Assembly: GCA_000310025.1 (NCBI GenBank)
Contig: FN649759.1
Span: forward strand, 252,802-316,801
Origin: Ectocarpus siliculosus
Taxonomy: Eukaryota > Sar > Phaeophyceae > Ectocarpales > Ectocarpaceae
Direction: 5' to 3'
DNA length: 64,000 nucleotides
Below the pieces are notes generated by a model that ran no database searches, was not told where the DNA came from, and worked only from the letters and a program-made list of their open reading frames with translations. A program made the translations under genes and the position numbers. This document shows positions 18,578 through 62,999 of this stretch, piece after piece; positions within the stretch are counted from its first letter, which is position 1; the number at the start of each line of letters is the position of its first letter.

Positions 18578-21500
18578 ATGTCTGACTACGCGACCGAGCT
18601 TCTTAGGAGGCAACTGCAGGGTGAGTCATCCCCCTCCGTCCCTTGCTCACGTTCGCTTTCGTATCCCCCACGCCTGAACTGTACGCGTTGTGCCTTGAGT
18701 CTCACGGGCACGTAAATGACAAGGGACCCAGGGATCAAGTCCACCCGCGGGTGATCCTGACTTCCACCCTGAAATCAACTCCAGCGCTCTTCCGGACCTG
18801 TAGGATAGGTTCGCGTGAAACTCCACGCGGGGGATAGGATACCGTTTATATTTTTTTCCAAGATGCTCCGAGATCGGGCGGTGTTTGTTCCAACATGGTA
18901 CTGCATCTGACGCGATTTTCGGCCACTGCTGTAGTTAGGCCAGGCGTTGGGCGTGTGGTATTCAACCAGAAAATAGTCGTTGGCGCGTTGGAGTCCTTGA
19001 CGGCAACTTCTGGACCGAGGCTGAGAATGCCTTCTCGATGATACAGCAGTGTGAAGACCACAAGCTACAGCAACATGCATAGCACACACGAAGAAATGAG
19101 CTAATTAGTCTACAACGGGAACGGGGTGGCATGGTCGTGGTCAAAAGAGAAGACCATTTTTTTACCGACAGACACGGGGCGGGCACCAGCTAGGTAGGGC
19201 GTCCAGTGCAGAGCGTGAGCGGGCCGCAGTCTGCCCTCGTTGTACGGTGTTGGGGTGGCCCTCCGGCCTCCAAACTAGGAGAACCCACTCTGACCTTTGT
19301 CTCACGTGGGGCGTTTGTTGTCTGCCTGCATGGCCATGTAAGTGAGACCGCCGAGGGAAAACCCAAACACATTACCCGGCGTTTAGATACGTTCCTTAAA
19401 GTGTGACCCCTTAGGCTAGCGCTTCGGACATTTTCCGAACAGATTTTTTCCAAAAGGAGGAGGCGAACGCCCAGAGTATTGGACTTCACACACCACACAC
19501 TGACCACCAAGCTGCCCAGAAAATGCCTATCCGAATGAAACGCATGCAACAGCCAACTTTACAGAAAACCCAATCTACTCCTCGAGTATGTTCACCCGGA
19601 ATATTATCCGATTTCCCCTTCTCTCGACAAGTCGGTTCGTGCTGCCGGCAGGGCTCGTCACCCCATATATATGACCATGCCATCTGTGCTCGCGAACCCA
19701 ACTTCACGGAGTGGGTGTTCCCTTCTAGCCCACCGCTGCTGCGGCTCTGTTGCAAACTCCGAGCTCCTTATCCCCCTACTCTCGCGCCACATTTGCCCGA
19801 ACCGTCGGAAAACGCGCCGCCTTCAGAACTTAACAAGAACCCCCCCGAGGGAGTCTCGGTAGGTCTGGCCAATGACGACAATATGTTCATGTGGGAGCTG
19901 CTTATCGTGGGCCCAGCAGATACGGTGAGTGCTCGCCTACCTCGTCTCTTTTGGTGAACCAACTACCGTCAATCCTGTCATGTTGTATGTTGTAGCGTGT
20001 CCATTGATGTTATGTTGTCTTATGTGACCTGTCCGTGTAGTAGACAAAACCACCTAGTGCCCATCTATTTGTTAGACGTGCCGTCAAAACTTGGCATGTG
20101 GGTATTTTCGTATTTTCTGTCTTCTTCTGGCCTTGGCCTGTTTGTAGCTCTAATGTTGATCAAAGAGAAAGTCCGGCAGCCAGCAGTGATGCTGGTCAAC
20201 AAGCAAGCTCGGCAGCCGACGATTCCAACATATATACGGTATTTGGTGCTGTGCCGACATATTTTCCTAGGGCCCATTCGTGTCTTGTGTTTTTGGTGCC
20301 ATTGGCCTGTCTCAGATGTCAGTGAAGGAATAAGCCCCGAGAGAGGACCGGGTTTGTGCACTGTTCTGGGCCGTTGTCAACACAATGCCCAACGATTGCA
20401 ATATTATTCTTGGGGTGTTAATCAGCCAGAGCGCGTTCCTATTCGGAGTAACCACGCCCCCGCCCCGCCAGCAGAGATGTGTGGGGTAGCTAGGGTTGGG
20501 GTGAAGGCCGTTTGGACATGATTTTTGACTCCTGCACACGGCGGTCGTTGGTGTATGTGGATGTCGATGCGATCGAGACGTTGCTGGCTGTTGCCGGAAC
20601 CTCGGCTTGTTTCAAGTTACTTCGGCCTTTCTGTCGGCCTTGTTGGTTCGTGCGTTCATGCCCCCTCTTGCCTCTTTGTATGTGTGTGTCTTCTTTTTGA
20701 TATTTCAGCTGTATGAGGGAGGGTTCTTCAAGGCCAAGCTCGAGTTCCCGAAAGACTTCCCGAACAACCCTCCGACCATGACCTTTATCAGCGAGATGTT
20801 CCATCCCAATGGTAAGAAGCGGTTGCTCTTTGGAGGCGGCGTCCATGATTGCGGCGTTGTTGTTGTCCTTGTCGTTGTTGTTTTCTCTACTAAATACTAC
20901 AAATACACAACCCCGTTCTTACCGCTGATGAGTGGCTTGCCTTTTTGGTTGCCGCCGCTTTCCCGAACCATGTTTCGAAGCGGGCGTTGTCCTAGTAGAC
21001 ACGCAGACACGCAAAGGCTGCCTCTTATCACACGTTAGCAGGCGTGGAACGCACTCTGTCGTACGTCAGTCTCATCATTCACATCGCAGTGTCCGCCCGA
21101 GCGCTTACTGGGAAGACTTTTCTTTTTTGTCCGCCACGCACCCGCCGTTCTCAACGGTGTCGTCTTTTTTTTTCTTGTTTGCCTGCCTTTTTTGTGAACA
21201 CTTGCCGCAGTGTACCCGGATGGGAGGGTGTGCATTTCGATCCTGCACCCACCGGGAGAGGACAAGTTCAACGAACAGGTACGGATGCACACGACACTCA
21301 CACCGAAAGTCTTGAACGCGTCCGTGCTACACGTATCTCCGCCCGGACGTGCGTCTTTTGTGGCTTGTGCAAACGCGTGAAGAGATTTGAGCTCGCAAGC
21401 TTACCTAGAACTCCGTTTCTCTGGGTTTGTGTTGGGGTTGGGGTTTGTTGTAGGCGTTATGAACCGAGCTCACAATGGTTAACCGGCTTACAATTGATTG

Positions 21501-24683: not shown

Positions 24684-24758
24684 ATGCTGTCCCTGCTGGT
24701 TTCTCTGGTGCTGTTGGCAGAGGCCTCTGGCTTCGTCCCTTCCGTCTCCGCTGGAGGT
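24684..24758 (+). other. Signal peptide with ASAFAP-like motif
   Basis: The first codons of the dioxygenase-SET gene encode a hydrophobic stretch, then AEASGFVPS. In algae with secondary plastids, a signal peptide followed by a Phe in an ASAFAP-like context directs import into the plastid. The Phe sits at about residue 18. The start ATG at 24684 is the first in-frame ATG; only a GTG lies upstream at 24657. Plastid versus secretory routing is inference. Confidence 0.5.
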
Positions 24759-26355
24759 GCGAGGCGGAGCTCGGCCTGTGGTCCGCCTGTGTCCCGTGAT
24801 GATGGTTGTCGACCGGTTGCCGCCACGGCGACGTCGCTGGGCAAAGATTGTGATGCCGGCATCCCTGCTGTCGTTGTCTCTTTCGGTCTGACGCCTCCGG
24901 AGAGGCTGGCGGCGGAGCAAGCTGTGAGAGCAGGTGCCATGTTCCCGGCCGGGTTGCATGTGGTCGACGGTGCAGCGGCTGCTGCAACTGTGGATGGCAG
25001 CACGCTGAGGGAGGTATACAGCAGTAGTTTGCAACATGCGTGTGATTTGAACAGTGAACCGCGCAGGGCAGTTTGCGGATGCCTCGCGCCGGGATGATGA
25101 GATAGCCGTTAGTGTCATTTCTGGCGTACTCTCTGTCTGTCTCTGTCTGTCTGTCTGTCTGTCTGTCTCTGAGGCGCTTGGGCTTCATGTGGACGGCACG
25201 GTCGCGAAGTCCCTGTGACCTATCTATGCACTCTGACAGCAGTCATCATGTGCGCTACATGCACCTTCACGTGGTTGACCCACAACACCTGTCGTGTCGA
25301 GGGAATTCTCTCTCACTTGCACAGCTCGCATTCAACGGCCAGACCCAATCTATTCGTCGTTGCGCAGCTGTGTAGGTAAATAGATGGTGTGTCTTTCCAC
25401 AGCGGTGATTGGTATCTGTTGTAGCTCATAAGTGTTGTCGGAGGATTGTGCTCATCTCCATGTCGATAGACAATCGATGCACAACATACGGTCCAGCAAG
25501 CAAAGCGCTCTATTGTGCGTGTTCTCTCAAGTGATGTTCCGTTTGTTTCATCGTCTCAACGACAGGCGATTCTGAGAAGCTCGGGGCTGTCCGGCGAGCA
25601 TCCCCTCCCGCAGGCGCTGGTCGACGCCATGACGGACACCCACACCACTACACCCACCAACACCACCAACAAGAAACCCAGCTCCGGTGCTGATGTCCCT
25701 GGTGATTTCATGCCCAACCTGTGGTTGGTGCTACAGTCACCGACCAACCTACCTCCCGCTGAGGGGGAAGGACTCCCTGACTGGCTTGCCTTGTCGATGA
25801 TGGAGGCGCTTGACGCTTGCGAGTCGGTCCCGCCGGCGATCGTCTCCTGCGTTCCTCCTCCTCCTCCATCGCCAGCACCAGCCTCATCACCATCGTCGTC
25901 TTCGCCGCCGCCGGTGTTATCCTTCGACGCTGCGCTGCTGGACATGCCTCTGGCTGACTTGTGGAGGCGAGAGGCCAGGCGCCACTTCGCGTGAGGGTTG
26001 TTGCTATGGGCGCGTTACGTGCGGACAAGCGATTTCGTCGCGGGGGAAAGGGGTTCCATATGTCAGCCTTGGTTTCTTCGCGTACTCTCCTTTCGCTATT
26101 ATCGCGCATGTTTGCCTTTCGGGCGCAAAGTCGTGCTGGTTACACGCAAAGAGCGGAATGCCAATTTTCGAGAGGGAACAAAATTTATCGTTGTTGTGCG
26201 CGCAATTGAAAAATCAGCTGTTGCCGGTCTTGCATGTCACGACGCCAGCTTTTCGGAGGGACAACAGAAAAAGAGCAGCGCGTTTCGCCACGGTTGCTTT
26301 CGATCATTCCTCTGCCGAGCTATCTAACAACAACTTATCCACGCACGCAGATACA

Positions 26356-26389
<34 letters not shown>

Positions 26390-28397
26390 GGGGAGAAGCG
26401 GTGTGACACCGCTAAGAAAACTGACGAAACCTTCTTTTTCGTTCCACGCGCGCAGCGAGAACGGCCTATCCGAGCCGCTGAAAGTGCACGGGACCGAGTG
26501 GTCCCCCTCGAGCCGGGGTGTGAACGTGGCGATGAATCTTGAGTTGGACGGGTCGTGGGTGCCCTCGTCGAATGACCCGGGGGGGGAACGGTGGGACACA
26601 AGCAAGGTGAGCCACCACACTCTACTGTTGAGACGTATTATTTGTTGTAGACGTGACGAAGATGACAGTATAAGAGTGATGTCAGCGGCTGCTCCGGGAC
26701 AAGGATTGGGGGCACCGCCAGGGGTGGGTGGGTACCATCGCCGCTGTAGCTGCTGCGACGCCAAGGCCAGAAGGACGTGTCGCGGGCCCCCAAGTAAGGG
26801 ATCTCTGTTTTCTTGGTGTACGGGCTCTAGCTGGTAGACATGTAGTGGGGGGGCGCCAATATCGCCGGTTGATGTAGCGCCGGCGGGCCTGTATACTGTA
26901 GCGCCTAGGAAACTGCTGGTAACACACTGAGCCGCCAAGTCATTCTGTAGATTGAATAGCGCCGGTCGATGCGCCGGGCACTTACCGGCGTTATTGCGGG
27001 CACTTCACTACTGTATGCCTATAAAATATTCAAACCGAAGGACCAGTGCGAAGCACAAGTTGTCGTCCAAGACTGCCGGCTTGAAACGATTTGCGGGATT
27101 GTTGAATGAGCCATGTACGCACAAAGGCTGTGGCGGGACAACATGCTTTCGTGCCGTCGGAAACCAGGCCGCTCCCAGGAAAGGCATACGCGGATCACCG
27201 CGGATCATGCAAGCCTAGCTGATGCCCTACTCTACCCTAGGGGAGGGATGAGAATCCCGGTTACAGAGACGCCGTTTCGTTCACCCTGAGGTATTTCTTA
27301 CACCATGCACCACGATTCGATCACAGCAGAATCTTAAGTACGGTGTAGAAGCAGGTGCTTGCGTTTCAGTGTGTTCCATTCTTTCAGCCGTTCATCCACA
27401 CGTTTTTTTTTTCTTACCTTCAAGGATTTCGTGTGGCGCCCCGCCTTGTGAGGGATGCGTGATCAATCCGGCAAATGACCTAGGCAAGCAACAGCTAGTA
27501 CCTCGGCGACCCCCCCCCTCCTGCTTTGCTTTTCCATGTTTCAGCTGGTGGTGTTAGACGGTCTTGTGGATGAGGACCTCTGCAGAGAGTTGCTTGATCT
27601 AGTCACAGAGCCTGGATGGGCCACGAAACCACCACCTGTGCCAGCGACACCGGGAACGACGGCGGCAGCACTATCGCTCGATCAGCCGACATCCGGCAAC
27701 GAGGGAACGCCGGTACGAGAACGGCCACCGCCGTCGAAGTGGGAGCGGGGTCTGACCGATGTGGACGAGGAGGAGGAGGAGGAAGAGGGGGGAGGGAGAG
27801 GGGCGGGGCCAGGCAGCTGGGGCTTGACGGAGGAGGCCATGGAATGGTTGTGCCGAGACGGGAAGCACCCGGCGATTGTAGAGGTATGTGCCTAGATTTT
27901 TGAGCGTGCTGTCACTGCTTCTGCTACCGTAGTTGCCGGCTATTGCTGACGTGGGGTTGGCGACGTTCGGGGATAAGTTTTTGCCTGCGACCGCCACACA
28001 ATCCTGATCCCGGCCGTAGCACTTCGTTGCAAGCTCGGACACTTGCACGCCGGCAGTGAAACGACAAAACGATTTCGCCAAGTGTGTTTTTCACACCTGC
28101 TTCGCGCCCCCTCCCGCCGCCCAGCTCCAATCCAGGCTGTGCAAGCTCTACCCAGACTTCGAGATATCGCACATGCCCGAGGCGGTCATGGGTCCCAGCA
28201 CCGCACGTATGGTGGCCAACGCCCCCGTTTACGGCGACCGTTTTTCGTGGCACGTCGACGCCGACCCGGCGGCCTTTCCGCCGTCGCCCTGGCGGGATCA
28301 CTTCGGGACCTACACCAACAGGCGGGTGCTTTGATCTGTTTTCGTGTCGACTTGGCTGTGATTATGTGCGGGCCGGTCTCTACTGTTGGCCCCTGGC

Positions 28398-28430
<33 letters not shown>

Positions 28431-31400
28431 TCGTCTTGTCTATCTGTCTTCATTTTGTTTTCTTTTTCTCCCTGTTCGTCGCTCTCTTCTCTGCATGCCC
28501 CTTTGTTTTTCTCTTGGTGTGGTGGAGTAGCTGGGCTGCTTGTGCAAGTTCTTGATTGATCGTCCCAACCATTCAACGTGTCACATCAAGTTGCACAACA
28601 GCAGAGCGGGTAAGGTTTGTGGGGAATGGCGTCACTCCGACAAGGATGGATCGCGCTGTTCATGGAAATAATGCATGTAATCGTCGCCACACAAGCACTG
28701 GCAGTGTCACTTCGCCATCTTCGTGAAACACGCAGAAAGCGCTAAAACGTAGCCTATAGCAATGCAGTTTATGAAAAACGAAATCGGTGGTCGCTGGATA
28801 TGAAAAACGAAATCAATGTTCGCAGGGAGCCGGGGATGCCTCTCTTCGCGACGCTGCTGATTTACCTCGACGCGGACTGGCGGAGGGAGTGGGACGCGGA
28901 GACGCTCTTCCTCGACCCCCCTACCGGCACCGGGGTGTTCGTTAGGCCGAGGGCGGGGCGGGTCATCGTGATGGACCAGGACGTCACGCACCGGATTTCC
29001 ACTCCGTCCCAGGTGTGAAAGGAGCTACGGAAGTGTCGCCCCTGCTTCCACGAGAACCTCTTTCTTTGCCCGAGGCTCGGTTCTTATTTCCTCCGCGGGG
29101 TAACCCAACGGCTACAACATAGGTTTTGGTGTGGCCCTCTTACACTGAGCGCCTCTTTTTGTTATCGATCTTGTTGGAGTCTACAACTCTAAACTCGAAG
29201 ACCATTAGCGATCGTTCGACGGGGATCATTTTCACGTGTTGCATGGCACACACATGTATGTGCCCCTATATTCCTGTCCCCTCTTGTGGTTTTGGTGTGC
29301 GTCTGTATCAAGGTACCGTTCGTTGCATGAGGTTCCACACCCCGTGGGCCCGTTATCACTGCTTGTTTACTCTGAAGCACAAGCACTGACGGTGCCGGAA
29401 ATGTCAGCGTTGGAACTGTCGTGTCGAGGGCTTTCCGAAAGCGCATCATTTTGGCTGTGTGTTCTCTCTTCGTCGTGGAGTATTCGAGCTCTGAAAATAA
29501 GTCCAAATGCGGTGTGTGTAGCATCTTATACAAGCTATGTTAATCGGAGAGTTTGTACCCTGTAGGTTTTCGTTTTCACTGGTTGGTTCGAGATGGACGG
29601 GGGCGGCGGTAGAATCCACTCGTACGTACTGTAGATCGCTTTTTTGTTTTCGTTGCCATAGTTCTCTCACTTCACATCTTTGCGGGCCGTACTTGTTGCT
29701 GTGTTTCTACCGCCCCGTGCGATTCTAACCCTGTCCCGCAGATTCCGCACGCTGTCCCCGGACGCAAACATGCTTAGTTCACCCCCCCCTCCTCCCCTAC
29801 TTCTTGCTATCACTATATGCCTTCCCTACCCGTGACAGATGGCCAAGCGACCACGGTACAGCCTAGTCCTGAAGCTCATCTTCTTCTCGAAGCAGCACGG
29901 GCGCTACGACAACCGCTCATCTTCTTCACCGTTTCCCGGAACAACACAAACCACTTCCGGTACCACCCCCGGTTCGGCGGCGGCACCTCACGGAGCCCCC
30001 GGTGTTTCCCACGCGCCGGCAGAGCCGTGCATTTCCTCCCTCTCGGCCCTTCGACCCATGAAAGAAAACTCGCAGAGGGGTGGGCGTGTGAGGTTTGGAT
30101 CCTCTTCTGAATCATCGTCTGAGCGAGCGCGTCCCTCGGGGAGGTCATCGTCTCCCGACAGCACCCCCCCCGCCGCGGTGCCGGTGCCACCGCCGCCTTT
30201 CCAGGATGATGCTACTGGTGCTGCCGGTGGTCTCGAACCTTTGGATGCGGAATCACCGTTGGTGGAAGTGAGGCCTGTCGGGGCCAAGGGGAAGGGGCTG
30301 TTCTCCACAAGGCGAGCTTGACTCGATTTTTTGGTGGGGCATGGGAGATGGGGGGTCGGGGGGTGGGGGGTGGAGAGAGAAGTATTGACCGAGTGTGTGG
30401 TAGGGGACGTAGCAGGGGCGGACTGACTGGATAGAGGAATCCTCGTGTCGTTTCGGAAAACTACCAAGAAGCAGGGGACCCTCGAATCGGAGCCCCATCC
30501 TGGTCGTGCCTATTCTTTGCTGTACTCGATTCCGTGGTGTGTAACCCGTCATACACCATGCACCCCGCTTGGTTGCAACCGGCATGGACATGCTGTGTCA
30601 CGAAAGGGTCGCAGTTTCTTCTCTCTTGGGGGAGAGTGGCTATCTCGACGTTTTCCGGCGAACTCGATGGGCCATTTGTTTGGATGTTGTGCGTTTCGGA
30701 ACTGTCTCTCGACTACCTGGCAGCTTGGAACACCTTCCCACGGGTAGATGAGAGCAACAAGACACCCCGTAACCCACTAGGATTTTTTCTATCGCGTCAA
30801 GAAGAAAACAAATAGACGACCCCGGCCATCGTCGCAACGCTGTCTTCTTGCTCTTTTCTCGCGGGTGCCTCGCGGGTGCCTTGTGATTTCTACAATGTTT
30901 TAAGGCCAATCGCCAAAGGCGTACCTGTTGCGTTTTACTCGGGGGAGGTGCTGACGGCCGAGCAGCTGGACGACCGATATCCCGGCTTCGAAGGCTCGGA
31001 CTACGTCATGCAGCTGGGTCCGGACCGATATCTGGACGCACGGGACCCGGAAAAGTCGAGCATCGCCAGGTGGGATTCAAGGCCTGGAGTCGTGAGTGGT
31101 GGTGGTCGGCTGGGTTGGGGATGTTCGTCCGGATTTGATGGGCGGTGGTGGTATTGGTGTGGTTTTTGTGGTAGTGACCGTGATTGTGGTTGTAGGTGGA
31201 ATAGGGGTTGCTGGATGACTAACTTTGTGTTAATCCCCATGTCTTCCCACGATCCGGTGGGTCTTACGGTGGAGTTTTGGGCAGAGGAAGACTGAGGGTT
31301 TACTGCTACCGGAAAGCTGGGAAGAAATTCGGTCCCCTAAAATGAAGTGAATTTCGGGATATTTTTTCATAAATATATGTATGTAGAGGGAGAGACCGAA

Positions 31401-32156
31401 AGACCAGTGCCGTCGAACGTTGCTTGTTGGACAGAGCGACCTCCCTCTGCAGTCATTTGCCCCAACCCCACATTTCTATGAGGGGTGCCCGCCTCGCAAT
31501 AGTCGGAGGGAAGCTTCAGGTTCGAGTTTCTGTGTCAGGGTTGGACGGTGGAACACTAGCAGCGACAGAGATTTGCCATACGGATCCGAACTAGTGACCA
31601 AAAAGTTTCGAGGAAGCGTTGCGTGCTCCGGGGCAAACACCCGCCTCCTTCTCACGTCTCATCCATCCAGCCTGTCTGCTGTCAACCCGCATTCCCTGAC
31701 CCATACTTTGCCCACCACGACACGGTCCAAGCAGGTACGCCAACCACAGCGGACGGCCTAACCTTGTTGTCGAGATTCGACCTGTCGACGGCAACGGCGC
31801 CGCGGCCGTCGCTGCTACCGCGAGCAGCGGTTTTCCCAACGGGGAAGGGGTGGCGCTTACGACTCTTCGAGACGTGGTTGGAGGAGAGGAGCTGACTTTC
31901 GACTACGGCGAAGAGTGAGTGACACATGCCCGCAGTTGTAGTATTGTGCGTTTAACTCTGCTCGTGTCGGAGGCACCCGGAATTCGACCCCGTGCTTTCC
32001 AAAGATTACATCGTCAGGGAGAAGGTTTGTTGGTCACACCTGCGGCCCACGGGTGCTTGTGTGGGAGATGTTCTGCAGGGTGAAAGCCTTTTGTTTGAAA
32101 GAGCCAATGGAGGACACCGCACCAGACGAGGGCTGCGGAGGTCCAACAAGAAGTGA
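24684..32156 (+). CDS. 2-oxoglutarate/Fe(II) dioxygenase fused to a SET domain (10 exons)
   Basis: Predicted bifunctional protein-modifying enzyme: an oxygen-dependent hydroxylase followed by a lysine methyltransferase. Exons 24684-25013, 25566-25990, 26456-26606, 27545-27883, 28125-28321, 28826-29012, 29839-30311, 30905-31069, 31735-31914 and 31973-32156 join in phase to 876 residues. The N-terminus has a hydrophobic leader (LSLLVSLVLL) followed by ASGFVPS. The dioxygenase shows HVD at 458-460, the distal His at 536 (DQDVTHRIS) and Arg549 (RPRYSLVLK), the expected iron and co-substrate ligands. The SET part begins near 685 (GAKGKGLFST), continues with AFYSGEVL, YANHSGRPN (757-765) and ends with GEELTFDYG (806-814). 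One exon, 29839-30311, holds both the dioxygenase end and the SET start, so this is not two genes. Introns after 28321 and 30311 use GC donors. Alternative 3' end: splice 32024 to 32376, stop at 32462. Substrate unknown. Confidence 0.88.
25127..25170. repeat. TGTC tetranucleotide repeat
   Basis: (TCTG)n-type run in the first intron of the dioxygenase-SET gene. A second such run lies at about 28398-28432 in another intron of the same gene. Confidence 0.9.
26346..26391. repeat. AC dinucleotide repeat
   Basis: (AC)n run in the intron before exon 3 (26456) of the dioxygenase-SET gene. Confidence 0.9.
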
Positions 32157-32462
32157 AATACGCGCTTGGTCGAAGCGCGGTATCTTACTGCCGTTCGGGA
32201 GGTGGCTCTCAAGGCTCCGTCCCTCATCGCCGTTGCTACTCGGTCAAACTCCGGGCTTCTCCCCACACAACAACGCGCGGAGGTATCGGCCCCATCGAGC
32301 CAGCCGAACAGCCCGGAGCGCTTCGCCCCGCCCCGCGCGTTGTGTGTGTAGTGCTTCATGTCGCCGTTCTTTCAGGCGCAAGGACTTGTATATCATCCGG
32401 TGTGCGCCTTCGGCGAATTGTCCATGTCGCTCGCCTCCACACGCACGTGGCAGACACCCTAA

Positions 32463-41663: not shown

Positions 41664-42220
41664 TCCCCCCCGAAGGGGGCTCGATTGGTGTTTGCCATCG
41701 AGATTGGGCTTTCGTCGCATGGCATCGACGTTGTAAAACAAGCCAATTCACTTCGTGAACTCGGCAACCAGGTTACCCTTTTTCTTTTTTCTCTTTGTTC
41801 TTTTCTTTGCGGTAACCATAATGTATGGTAGTCGAGTAGATCATGCTGTGCAGGGTCGAGAACCCTCGCTCCACGCAAGGGGGATGATCGCACCACGTTG
41901 TGTTGAAATGGTCAAGCATCCCCGAGGCAGTTGCACAGTGCTCGTAACTGTCTCTGGAAGTGAAAGCACCGGAAAATATACTCATACGCAGCTGTCATCC
42001 TTACGCAAGGAAGTAAGCACAAGATGCCGAACACCTTTAGCAGGATGCAGCGCACCCTACATGCGACTCGCCGAATACCTCATGGCGCTTCACGCTTGGT
42101 GATGTGAGAGCCTGGTCCGGTGAGAACCCGGCGTGCTCCGTCCCGGCTTTGTAGGGATGCGAGGTCAATGGTCCAACGACTACCGCATGCACGACTATGA
42201 GTACCACCCCCCCCCCCCCC
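41664..42220 (-). mobile_element. SINE-like element, copy D
   Basis: Minus-strand copy with head at the right end (poly-C at 42207-42220). Read on its own strand: ACTCATAGTCGTGCATGC, tRNA-like A box GTAGTCGTTGGACCATTGAC, B-box-like GGTTCTCACCGG, body, then the complementary pair GGTTAC/GTAACC around a pyrimidine loop (41772-41817). Next come the hairpin TTCACTTCGTGAA and one tail unit. Confidence 0.8.
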
Positions 42221-42602
42221 AGGGGGGGGTTTATCGGGGTTGGGTTTTCGTCGCTTGGCAACGACGTTGTAAAACATGCCGCCCCCCCCGGTGTTTGCCA
42301 TCGGGGTTTGGTTTTCGTCCTTGGCAACGACGTTGTAAAACAAGCCCCCCCCTCGGTGTATGCCATCGGGATTGGGTTTTCGTCGCTTGGCAACGACGTT
42401 GTAAAACAAGCCAATTCACTTCGTGAACTCGGCAACCAGGTTACCGTTTTTTTTTTCCCTCTGATTTTTTTTTGGCAGTAACCATAATGGTGGTCGAGTA
42501 GATCATGTTGTGCGGGGTGGAGAACCCTCGCTCCGCGCAACGGGGGATGATCGCACCACGTTGTGTTAAAATGGTCAAGCATCCCCGAGGCAGTTACACA
42601 GT
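42221..42602 (-). mobile_element. SINE-like element, copy E (cut by gap)
   Basis: The tail here has three units of about 60-65 bp (42225-42415), each with TGGCAACGACGTTGTAAAAC and separated by C-rich spacers. The body runs into the assembly gap at 42603, so the head is missing. Confidence 0.8.
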
Positions 42603-42702
42603 NNNNNNNNNNNNNNNNNNNNNNNNNNNNNNNNNNNNNNNNNNNNNNNNNNNNNNNNNNNNNNNNNNNNNNNNNNNNNNNNNNNNNNNNNNNNNNNNNN
42701 NN
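42603..42702. other. Assembly gap (100 N)
   Basis: Gap inside the SINE cluster, where near-identical repeats would defeat assembly. The true size may differ. Confidence 0.99.
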
Positions 42703-42767
42703 GGCCGTCCATCCCTAGCGCGCCAGAAACTCACAACTCCCCCCCCCCCCCCCCCCCCCCGCGCGCG

Positions 42768-48400: not shown

Positions 48401-51400
48401 ATGGGGTTTTATATCAGTACACACGCTTCCCTCGTTGGAAGGAGACCCAGGTCGTGGTAGTCTTTTCCTACTACCGGGGGCTGACAGATTTCTTCTCGAG
48501 ATTTGGCGAAGAGAAGCTCTCTCTCTCGAGAGAGAGTGCAGGGGGATATTTACCGCTTTTTTTTGCACCTCGAGTTCACACCCCGACCCGGAGTTAGAAG
48601 AATACCGGCCATGGTGCATTAGCGCCAACAATATTCCACAGTTTGGTTGTACCGCGACCGCCAATAGGTTGCCGCCACATACATCAGTGCAGAATGTCTT
48701 GTCCCCGGCAGTATAATGGCTTCATCCGGTGCTACAAATGTGTGCCTTTCTGTCGGTTTTCTGGAAGCCTCGAACATGGCTTGAGCTATGGTCTCATGTG
48801 AGAACGACCTCGAATGCTTCTCTAAGGAACTGGGTAGCCATCGTTCCGGTCTTGGCTGGTCGAAAGAGATTATGCTCAACTTGGATAAATATTTCCGCAA
48901 CTGCTTAGTATTGTACCTGCAATACGTGTTTTGGTTAGGTGTTGATTGACATTCTTTTGGAAACGTGAGACACATGTCCCGGACTGGGTCTGGAATGATC
49001 AGGGGCTCCTCTCTGCCTCAAATGAGTGCGAGAAGAAAACCATTGCGCCATAGATTTCAGGTCAACCTGCGTATGCACCTACTTGGGCGATACTATTCTA
49101 GCCACATTATTCCGATAGAGGTAGGTTGTCCTTGATTAAGCGTAAAGCTGTGCGAATGGGCACGCCGAACCCACAAATGCATCCCAGCGCATGTCATTTC
49201 TATCTACGATTTCCGAATATTCCCACTTTCTTCGCCACACGGATACGCTCCGCGTTGTGATTGACCACGCAGGTTCTGTCGATGTGGGAAGACACCTTCA
49301 CCGGCTTGTTCAAGTTTCGCGCACGGTATCTGGTGTACGCATCCGACCTTCCCGAAGACGCTATTGCTCGCCTTGGCAAGGATCGCCTCGCTTTTGAAGA
49401 CAAGGGAACAACTGGCAGCAACAGCGGCGTTAAGGTGGCTTCCGCCTCCAATCCAAGTTCTCCGTTGTCCAAGCGAGACCAGAAAGCAGACGACGACGAA
49501 GTGTTCCTCACAAACAAAAGGGAGGACCTTGACGCGGTATTGATAGATAAGCCAGTCACGCTCTGCGTGGGTATCCGTGACGATTCGCCCGCCGGATGGA
49601 AAAGGAACTTAGGGCCACGGCTCACCCATTCATTCGATGTTAGTTCGGGTGAATTCACTCCTGTGGAGTGTACGGACGCCATAGCCAAACGCGCGAGAAT
49701 TCGGCTCGTGGAAGCTGTCGCGCGCGCGTCACGTCGCGCCGAGGAAGTCGCTGCCGCCGACAGCGGCCAGCGTGCGATGCAGAGCAGCGGTTGGCTGTTG
49801 CCGAAGCGAAGGACAGTAGGGCCTGCTGCTGTCAAGGGTAGTGCCGACAGACGTGGCAGCATCGCAGCTGCCACATCTGTGGGCGACACCGTATCAGTCA
49901 GAGAACCCAGCGAGGGAGAGTCCTCAGAAGGGGAGGAACCTAAGTCCGATGACCCGGAGTGGGAAAACGACGACCAAGACAGCGACTACGCGAGCGACAT
50001 CAGCAACTCCACCGACCGAGGGAACCATGATGCACAGGAGCTGCGGGTGAGGAAGTCGATCCGACCCAAGAAATCGCTCGGCCAAGAGTATGACCAGGGT
50101 GTCGATCCGTCCTGTGACGACAAGATTCAGACGAGTCCTTCTTCACCTCCACTTGCGGTACCTGCTGTAACTCCGCCCATGCGCGAGACCCCGCTGGTGC
50201 CTCATAGGGATGTGGAGCAACAAGAGCCTCTACCAAAACGACCGCGGCGTCTAGCCATGCCCCCCGTTGAAGGAATGCCAGCGCTCAGTTCAAGGCGTTC
50301 TGCAGAGCCACTCGGCTCCTCCTCCACGGCTACCCCTCCGAAGGCGGGCGGCTCGGTTCAAGCACGAGCTGGAAGCACGGGAGCAACACCTTCCTCGCCA
50401 ACTTCGTCCGTGCCGCGTTGTTCGGCGGAAACCACACGAGATGCAGGGGGGGCATTGGGATCGAAGTGCCGACCGTCGATTGCGGGAACGAGAACGAGGG
50501 GGCGCTCCACCAAGGCTGCCGTGGACGGTGCGGAGAAGTCGGACTGCGATCCGCAGCAAATTCTAGTCGGTGACGACTACCAAGCCGACATCCCAGACCT
50601 ATTGTCGGCAGAAGAGAGGAAGGAAGAGGCGGGGCATCCCGCTGCTGGGACAGGTGCCAAGATGGTGAGCTTCAGTTTGCCATCCCTGAAAGTGTTGTCT
50701 TCTTTGTGCAGTTATTGGGCAAGCTTTGTGTGTCGGCGATTTGGCGCCGAGCTTTCGACTAAGGTATACCAGACCATATTTGTGTGGATTCTGCGTCCAT
50801 GAAGCAGAAACGCAACAAACCCATGTGCCCCTCGCCCGCATGCCCTCTTGTTGCTGGGGACCCCAATAAATAGATAGTATCATACTCTAGCTGTAGTGCC
50901 CTGTGTGCTGTAGATGTGACCTGCTAACGAGCGATCATCTGAAGAGAGAAACGTCGAGGAAAAGGCCATGAAATAAACTACGAAGTACACTTCGTATTGT
51001 AGTATATACCCCGAGCTTGCTGACTGTAATATAGATCCGTTTCATTCGGACCACCTGTCCATGAAACCTCTGGCAGGTTTTTAGGACCGACCGGTAGACA
51101 CAACAAGATGCTGTTGTTGTCAATGATTACTGAAGTGGATTGTGTTTTGTTTTGGGTATTTTTTTATTTTTCAGTTCGGGGACGCAATTATGGACATGAT
51201 ATACACTGGAATGTTTGGGGTGTTTGTTTTGGGTACTTGTTATTTTTCAGTTTTGGGGACGCGATCGCGATATGGAGGGTTTTCTAATTTATTCCGCGCA
51301 CGTGTGATGGCGCTTCCTCTGCATAGATTTTCTCTGGGTAGATCACGGTCTACACGTGATTCGAACCCACTTGGGTATGCGGCAGAGTATATGGCGTAAA

Positions 51401-61945: not shown

Positions 61946-61975
61946 CGCTACAACCTATCCTTCATAGCTACTTGT

Positions 61976-62792
61976 GAGGTGCTGCAGACAGACGGAGAGC
62001 GCAGAGAACGAACCGAGAGCAGACAGAGTGCTGGTGCTGGTCTGCAGAGGGAATGAGGCAGACGGAGAGCGAAGAGAACGAACCGAGAGCAGACAGAGTG
62101 CTCCACACGTGATCGAGAAAAGGCGGAGCGGCGGCGGAGCGCTCGAAAAAAACGGTAGAAGTGAGAGGTGTAGGGGAGTGAGAGGTGTGGGGGGGAGCGC
62201 GACGTGCGAATCGAATTTTAGGGCTCCAGAGCTCCAAGTATATCTTTGAACGGAGACTATATTTGTGTTCCGAGACGAAGAGGCAGACAGAATGCTGGGC
62301 GTGCAGAAATGAGGTGCTGCAGACAGACGGAGAGTGCAGAGAACGAACCGAGAGCAGACAGAGTGCTGGTGCTGGTCTGCAGAGGGAATGAGGCAGACGG
62401 AGAGCGAAGAGTCTGCAGAGGGAATGAGGCAGACGGAGAGCGAAGAGAAACCCGAGAGCAGACAGAGTGCTCCACACGTGATCGAGAAAAGGCGGAGCGG
62501 CGGCGGAGCGCTCGAAAAAAACGATATTTGAACGGAGACTATATTTGTGTTCCGAGACGAAGAGGCAGACAGAATGCTGGGCGTGCAGAAATGAGGTGCT
62601 GCAGACAGACGGAGAGCATAGAGAACGAACCGAGAGCAGACAGAGTGCTGGTGCTGGTCTGCAGAGGGAATGAGGCAGACGGAGAGCGAAGAGTCTGCAG
62701 AGGGAATGAGGCAGACGGAGAGCGAAGAGAAACCCGAGAGCAGACAGAGTGCTCCACACGTGATCGAGAAAAGGCGGAGCGGCGGCGGAGCG
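61976..62792. repeat. Tandem array of about 280-335-bp units
   Basis: GAGGTGCTGCAGACAGACGG starts units at 61976, 62311 and 62593. Each unit contains GGTGCTGGTCTGCAGAGGGA and GTGATCGAGAAAAGGCGGAG. Units two and three also carry an internal duplication of TCTGCAGAGGGAATGAGGCA. A 313-codon minus-strand frame (61968-62909) and plus-strand frames run through the array; these look like by-products of the stop-free repeat rather than a gene. Confidence 0.85.
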
Positions 62793-62935
62793 GAAACATG
62801 CCCAGAAGCGGAAAGACAGAATGAACTCTAAATCCAAGTGAAAAATGGTGGGAGAAATGCTGTGGAAACATGCCCAGAAGCGGAAAGACAGAATGAACTC
62901 TAAATCCAAGTGAAAAATGGTGAGAGAAATGCTGG
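62793..62935. repeat. Two direct repeats of 72 bp
   Basis: GGAAACATGCCCAGAAGCGG at 62792 and 62864, followed by the same 50 bases (GACAGAATGAACTCTAAATC...). Differences are single bases. Confidence 0.85.
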
Positions 62936-62999
62936 TCTGTCAGGGCTCGAGAAAACCGATCTTTGAACGGAGAGCGGCCCGCTGGAAATACGAAATACT

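Follow-up and report, generated by a model that had tools for sequence, protein, structure and literature searches.

The window analysed here is a 64,000-nucleotide stretch of the genome of the brown alga Ectocarpus siliculosus (GCA_000310025.1, contig FN649759.1, positions 252,802 to 316,801 of the forward strand), and its central feature is a gene that appears to join a 2-oxoglutarate (2OG)- and Fe(II)-dependent oxygenase to a SET domain. Chaining of exons on the genomic DNA gives a protein of approximately 816 amino acids (aa) encoded by nine exons between positions 24684 and 31914 of the window, with all junctions in phase and the joins free of stops, and a single polypeptide with both domains is the best-supported gene model on this reading of the sequence. 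On balance, we lean toward the view that this nuclear gene encodes a single plastid-imported protein in which a prolyl-hydroxylase-like 2OG-Fe(II) oxygenase is combined with a compact SET lysine methyltransferase. The features on which this view draws are the following, all in window coordinates:

24684..25013, forward strand: exon 1, with the ATG, a candidate bipartite plastid presequence (the signal-peptide-like MLSLLVSLVLLAEASG, F-V-P-S and an A/S/G-rich stretch) and the start of an uncharacterised N-terminal region
25566..25990, forward strand: exon 2, uncharacterised N-terminal region with a low-complexity Pro/Ser stretch, without a Pfam match
26456..26606, forward strand: exon 3, N-terminal region leading into the dioxygenase
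27545..27883, forward strand: exon 4, beginning LVVLDGLVDEDLCRELLDLV; it lies upstream of the dioxygenase core and contains an acidic insert of low complexity
28125..28321, forward strand: exon 5, with the HxD iron ligands; alternative end at 28325 (GT donor)
28826..29012, forward strand: exon 6, dioxygenase core with the distal His; with the GT donor at 28326 the start shifts to 28830
29839..30311, forward strand: exon 7, which carries the 2OG-binding-type Arg, the final dioxygenase strand, the linker and, with GKGLFST, the first strand of SET
29896..30255, forward strand: linker of 120 residues, Ser/Pro/Gly-rich, stop-free, with a guanine-plus-cytosine fraction of 0.64
30905..31069, forward strand: exon 8, SET core (beginning PIAKGVPVAFYSGEV), with the acceptor AAG
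31735..31914, forward strand: exon 9, with NHS and GEELTFDYG, running to a TGA at 31916-31918 if unspliced
31973..32156, forward strand: candidate exon 10 of the first-pass annotation, a possible C-terminus that is in phase but no better supported than the alternatives

The oxygenase part contains the residues by which the 2OG-Fe(II) oxygenase superfamily is recognized, namely an HxD...H triad and a basic 2OG ligand. The iron ligands H (28251-28253) and D (28257-28259) are found in the WHVD of exon 5, the distal H (28989-28991) in exon 6, and the basic ligand R (29854-29856) in the RYSLVLKL of exon 7; the roles given here to single residues, in the oxygenase as in the SET domain, are presumed from what is usual in the two families. 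The Pfam profile 2OG-FeII_Oxy_3 (PF13640) matches aa 451-552 with an E-value of 1.4e-4 and 23.2 bits, below its curated cut-off of 27, and the FlmC 2OG-Fe model of NCBIfam, which matches aa 490-556 (E 3e-9), falls far short of its cut-off of 240 with 37.2 bits. Because the score falls below the curated cut-off, we refer to the protein as 2OG-oxygenase-like with complete ligands and not as a certified member of PF13640. It is like the PF13640 and FlmC-type oxygenases in its HxD, distal His and Arg and in a match over the core, but differs from them in these sub-cut-off scores, in its fusion to SET and in its long N-terminal extension. A JmjC domain was not reported in the protein by Pfam at E-values up to 1. 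The one match of the oxygenase in the PDB (E 0.69) was taken as chance, and the 2OG core also has a weak PHROGs match (phrog_274, E 9.4e-5) that is labelled DNA endonuclease V.

The SET match in Pfam spans aa 694-814 (E 1.1e-14, 55.2 bits vs a cut-off of 22.4) and covers profile positions 1-105 of 105. Exon 7 closes with the SET signature GKGLFST, and exon 9 holds NHS at 31742-31750 and, within GEELTFDYG, a catalytic-type Tyr at 31904-31906; every motif that the first-pass annotation had listed for the two domains, including the HxD, distal His and Arg ligands, is present in the sequence. An alignment of the fusion protein with five SET relatives has nine invariant columns, among them G13 and G15 (GKG), H79 (NHS) and Y132 (FDYG), although it serves as a consistency check only because the relatives were chosen for their similarity. 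The compact SET domain is a putative lysine methyltransferase.

Do the two domains belong to one protein? The proposal of a dioxygenase and a SET methyltransferase in one polypeptide, with the exon at 29839-30311 encoding the C-terminus of the former and the N-terminus of the latter without a stop, was made in the first-pass annotation and is borne out at the level of the gene model by the nine in-phase exons, the domain matches, and the base composition and codon ranking of the linker. A single frame runs through exon 7 from the Arg strand of the oxygenase across the linker of 120 residues to the first strand of SET. The linker is exon-like in composition, with the exons at 0.62-0.68 and the introns at 0.49-0.57, and by codon score the expected frame tops the three forward frames in all nine exons and in the linker (29896-30240) with both training sets. 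The codon model was trained on 25 long open frames (at least 280 aa) of the same genome, which possibly include non-genes. Among intron windows of the length of the linker, 25 of 2023 are open. These observations argue against an explanation that we consider improbable, in which two adjacent genes or alternative transcripts have been joined by chaining, such that the oxygenase ends in or after exon 7 and SET starts inside the linker. An in-frame ATG at 30058 within the linker would suit this explanation, as would the low complexity of the linker, and in a first-order Markov simulation with linker composition the needed frame was stop-free in 18% of 20,000 sequences, so the openness of the linker alone is weak evidence. 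Several further points weigh against a single protein and, in part, favor two genes. The fusion gene model is a prediction from genomic DNA. The splice after exon 7 at 30311 uses a GC donor (GCGAGC), and an in-frame stop at 30319 precedes any GT. The codon model is itself weak, with 107 of 169 leave-one-out windows assigned to the frame expected; for three of the nine exons and for the linker a reverse frame beats the coding frame, and the codon score of the linker is approximately zero (-0.00 and -0.04 with the two training sets).

The remaining uncertainties of the gene model concern single splice sites. Two introns of this one gene can be read with GC donors, 28322-28825, for which an equivalent GT-AG reading exists, and 30312-30904. 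The GC donor after 28321 is replaceable by the GT at 28326 together with the AG at 28828-28829, which leaves frame and length unaltered and turns a single residue from E into R. The 3′ end is less clear. Ten exons had been said to agree in phase, and in phase they do: candidate exon 10, starting at 31973, keeps the phase and has its stop ending at 32156. Its acceptor is weak and other acceptors are possible, so that nine exons count as supported. Without splicing of the last intron, the frame runs into the TGA at 31916-31918; after 31914 the protein may end either at this stop or beyond one of several acceptors.

The N-terminus, which the first-pass annotation did not discuss, provides the principal clue to where such a fusion protein might work. 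According to the account of plastid targeting in PMC2567999, proteins bound for the heterokont plastid have a signal peptide whose cleavage site bears an ASAFAP motif; nearly all of them possess its Phe, and the motif proved essential for import in Phaeodactylum. Translated from the first ATG behind the upstream stop in the exon 1 frame, the protein opens with MLSLLVSLVLLAEASG and continues with FVPSVSAGGARRSSACG. With the cleavage site placed by eye, the N-terminus reads MLSLLVSLVLLAEASG and then FVPS, which resembles a heterokont plastid presequence of a signal peptide plus an ASAFAP-type motif. With ASG before and FVP after the cleavage site, behind the hydrophobic core, the Phe at +1 expected of heterokont plastid-targeted proteins is present as judged by our own pattern. 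As a control, we took frames that begin with ATG and stay open for 60 codons or more on both strands of the window and of 20 loci of 10 kb (264 kb of the same genome); one of 1521 frames, that of the fusion gene, passed a strict test for a hydrophobic core plus [ASVTGC]x[AGSC]FxP, which is not a clean probability because the pattern, which admits G at -1 and V at +2, was written post hoc. It also tells against the plastid assignment that 19 of the 1521 frames pass the pattern without the P, and that the presequence call combines a cleavage site placed by eye with a pattern of our own. Import of the fusion protein into the plastid is nevertheless what we infer from its N-terminus.

A signal peptide by itself would direct secretion, and the protein could conceivably enter the endoplasmic reticulum and not the plastid, with SET having a secretory-pathway or non-protein role on a secreted protein or a small molecule. 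A precedent exists in BurB, a SET enzyme reported to act on a small molecule, methionine, which it methylates in dimethylsulfoniopropionate synthesis. We regard this explanation as having little probability, considering that Phe after the cleavage site is near-universal among heterokont plastid proteins and that the motif is required for import in Phaeodactylum.

If the protein is plastid-imported, its action may be pictured as follows. The presequence would direct the nucleus-encoded fusion protein into the plastid, where both catalytic domains would be active, and the flexible linker would let both reach the same plastid protein, on which one residue would be hydroxylated and a lysine N-methylated. 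The first-pass annotation had raised such action on a shared target as one possibility and control of methylation through hydroxylation as another. It is possible, although unlikely in our judgment, that the protein is a nuclear chromatin enzyme whose SET domain methylates histones and whose oxygenase acts on histones or their partners, in the manner proposed for a diatom SET-JmjC protein or for the plant protein ICU11. The solved SET domains with the best scores are histone methyltransferases, which head the best 60 of 131 distinct PDB sequences matched at E ≤ 10 (KMT2A, E 2.2e-6), yet this resemblance to KMT2A is a poor guide to what a plastid protein would act on. A SET domain and a JmjC domain in a single protein are on record in the relevant part of PMC3145265, the 2OG protein ICU11 associates with Polycomb repressive complex 2 (PRC2) in Arabidopsis according to the passage concerned in PMC7368280, and two lineage-specific SET families of brown algae are mentioned in a section of PMC13076208. 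On the other side stand the N-terminus, whose core is signal-peptide-like and is followed by F at +1, as expected, and the result that Pfam reports no further domain in the 816 aa, and hence no known chromatin-reader domain in the fusion protein. Given the presequence-like N-terminus, the plastid is a likelier workplace than chromatin.

Relatives of the two domains were sought with profile searches of the organism's own genome, covering a 189-Mb assembly of 492 contigs. SET (PF00856) matches 17 places, including the fusion gene, and of the 16 others, 15 were read (10 kb each; the place on C13 was left out) along with five loci besides the window. No oxygenase match was found near the other SET places in these 15 loci by local tblastn (E ≤ 1); the sole weak oxygenase match among the loci read, at E 0.20, is in L032, which is itself a PF13640 place. 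Five PF13640 places lie more than 1 Mb from SET matches or on other contigs, and five JmjC places are all on contigs without a SET match. The FlmC model finds one place in the genome at E ≤ 0.1, which is exon 6 of the fusion gene. PF13640 missed the fusion gene because exons split the domain, and the profile counts are therefore no proof of uniqueness. By tblastn, the closest SET relatives among the loci read are L001 (31%) and L003 (28%), in both of which the open frame that holds SET encodes a different N-terminal part. In these two related frames, L001:1303-1896 on the forward strand and L003:1426-2061 on the reverse strand, a shared Cys-rich stretch (C...CKNRVC...LCWxH) precedes SET and HN-C replaces NHS.

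Outside this genome no orthologue was found, a further point that does not help the proposed fusion: the 142-aa 2OG core is unmatched in the viral_contigs, genome_contigs, plasmids and phages collections. The N-terminal region has no match in viral_contigs, and the SET part matches four loci in viral_contigs and none in phages. Since the collections are prokaryotic or viral, these missing matches say little about other algae. Three of the four viral loci (L036, L037 and L039, with L038 left out) encode compact SET proteins with 26-32% identity by tblastn and the same core motifs. Their open reading frames of 179-225 aa each carry a CxCxxxxC tail and leave no room for an oxygenase. In the fusion gene, the frame of candidate exon 10 has no CxCxxxxC, whereas a CVCSASC at 32341 is reachable via other acceptors.

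The first-pass annotation had also asked whether such an architecture has been described, and the answer depends on the type of oxygenase. A SET plus JmjC protein of Phaeodactylum tricornutum, for which the authors cite confirmation by polymerase chain reaction on complementary DNA with data not shown, and a JmjC-SET protein of Neurospora crassa with the same two domains in the opposite order are both described in the relevant part of PMC3145265, which lists SET plus JmjC as not found in Ectocarpus. What these proteins share with the fusion protein is a SET domain and a 2OG-Fe(II) dioxygenase in one polypeptide, and the diatom is also a stramenopile; they differ in that their JmjC belongs to a different 2OG family, and the passages on them mention no presequence. 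With ICU11, the 2OG protein accessory to plant PRC2, the similarity lies in the coupling of a 2OG oxygenase to a SET enzyme, there via a complex of separate polypeptides in the nucleus, and the two are set side by side by description only. A SET domain fused to a prolyl-hydroxylase-like 2OG oxygenase was not among the matches listed in the open-licence literature, although domain-architecture databases may well list some. The fusion gene could belong to one of the two SET families that a 2026 survey, in the part concerned, describes as specific to brown algae (PMC13076208).

What might be the substrate of a hydroxylating and methylating plastid protein? As a speculative suggestion, to which we attach a small probability, the fusion protein could be the writer that is missing for the large subunit of red-type (form ID) Rubisco, hydroxylating residues and trimethylating a lysine. 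Valegard et al. (2018) is reportedly the primary paper on the modifications of diatom Rubisco. Both chemistries of the fusion protein occur on the diatom large subunit: trimethyllysine 346, hydroxylated lysine 150, hydroxyproline 155 and hydroxyleucine 174 are modelled in four of four diatom Rubisco structures, and hydroxyproline 48 and hydroxylysine 198 in three of the four (Table 2 of PMC9833100). Hydroxylated and trimethylated residues of this subunit also appear in a part of PMC7378808. Section 17 of the Rubisco review names no installing enzymes, and the words methyltransferase and hydroxylase are absent from its main text (PMC9833100). Other evidence makes the suggestion less attractive. 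The hydroxylation and trimethylation marks sit on different residues, and neither modification is listed for the red alga Galdieria in the same review (PMC9833100). The Rubisco large-subunit methyltransferase family combines SET with Rubis-subs-bind (PF09273) and is similar to the fusion protein in being a SET methyltransferase, possibly of the plastid, but the PF09273 domain by which that family is recognized was not reported in the fusion protein model by Pfam at E-values up to 1. It is present at two other places in the genome, and therefore another methyltransferase of the Rubisco type may do this job. A match to rbcL was not found in the genome assembly.

Elsewhere in the window, we noted four further features:

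20529-21035, forward strand: open frame encoding a partial ubiquitin-conjugating enzyme domain (PF00179, E 6e-11)
42040-42714, reverse strand: translated frame with a run of X, and therefore a run of N in the DNA
49261-50799, forward strand: 513-aa open frame that contains the beginning of an ELM2 domain (E 8.1e-5), a chromatin-type domain
61958-62939, reverse strand: long overlapping open frames with repeated peptides (SFRFWACF, SLSVCLIPSAD), suggesting tandem repeats

Should the suggestion about Rubisco prove correct, there would be a named candidate for the orphan modifications of diatom Rubisco, that is, its hydroxylated proline, lysine and leucine and its trimethylated lysine. If the fusion of this oxygenase type to SET is real, SET-dioxygenase fusions would extend beyond the JmjC type. 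And if the protein is indeed sent to the plastid, a hydroxylase and a lysine methyltransferase would be built into one plastid-sent protein, and the question would shift from chromatin to photosynthesis.

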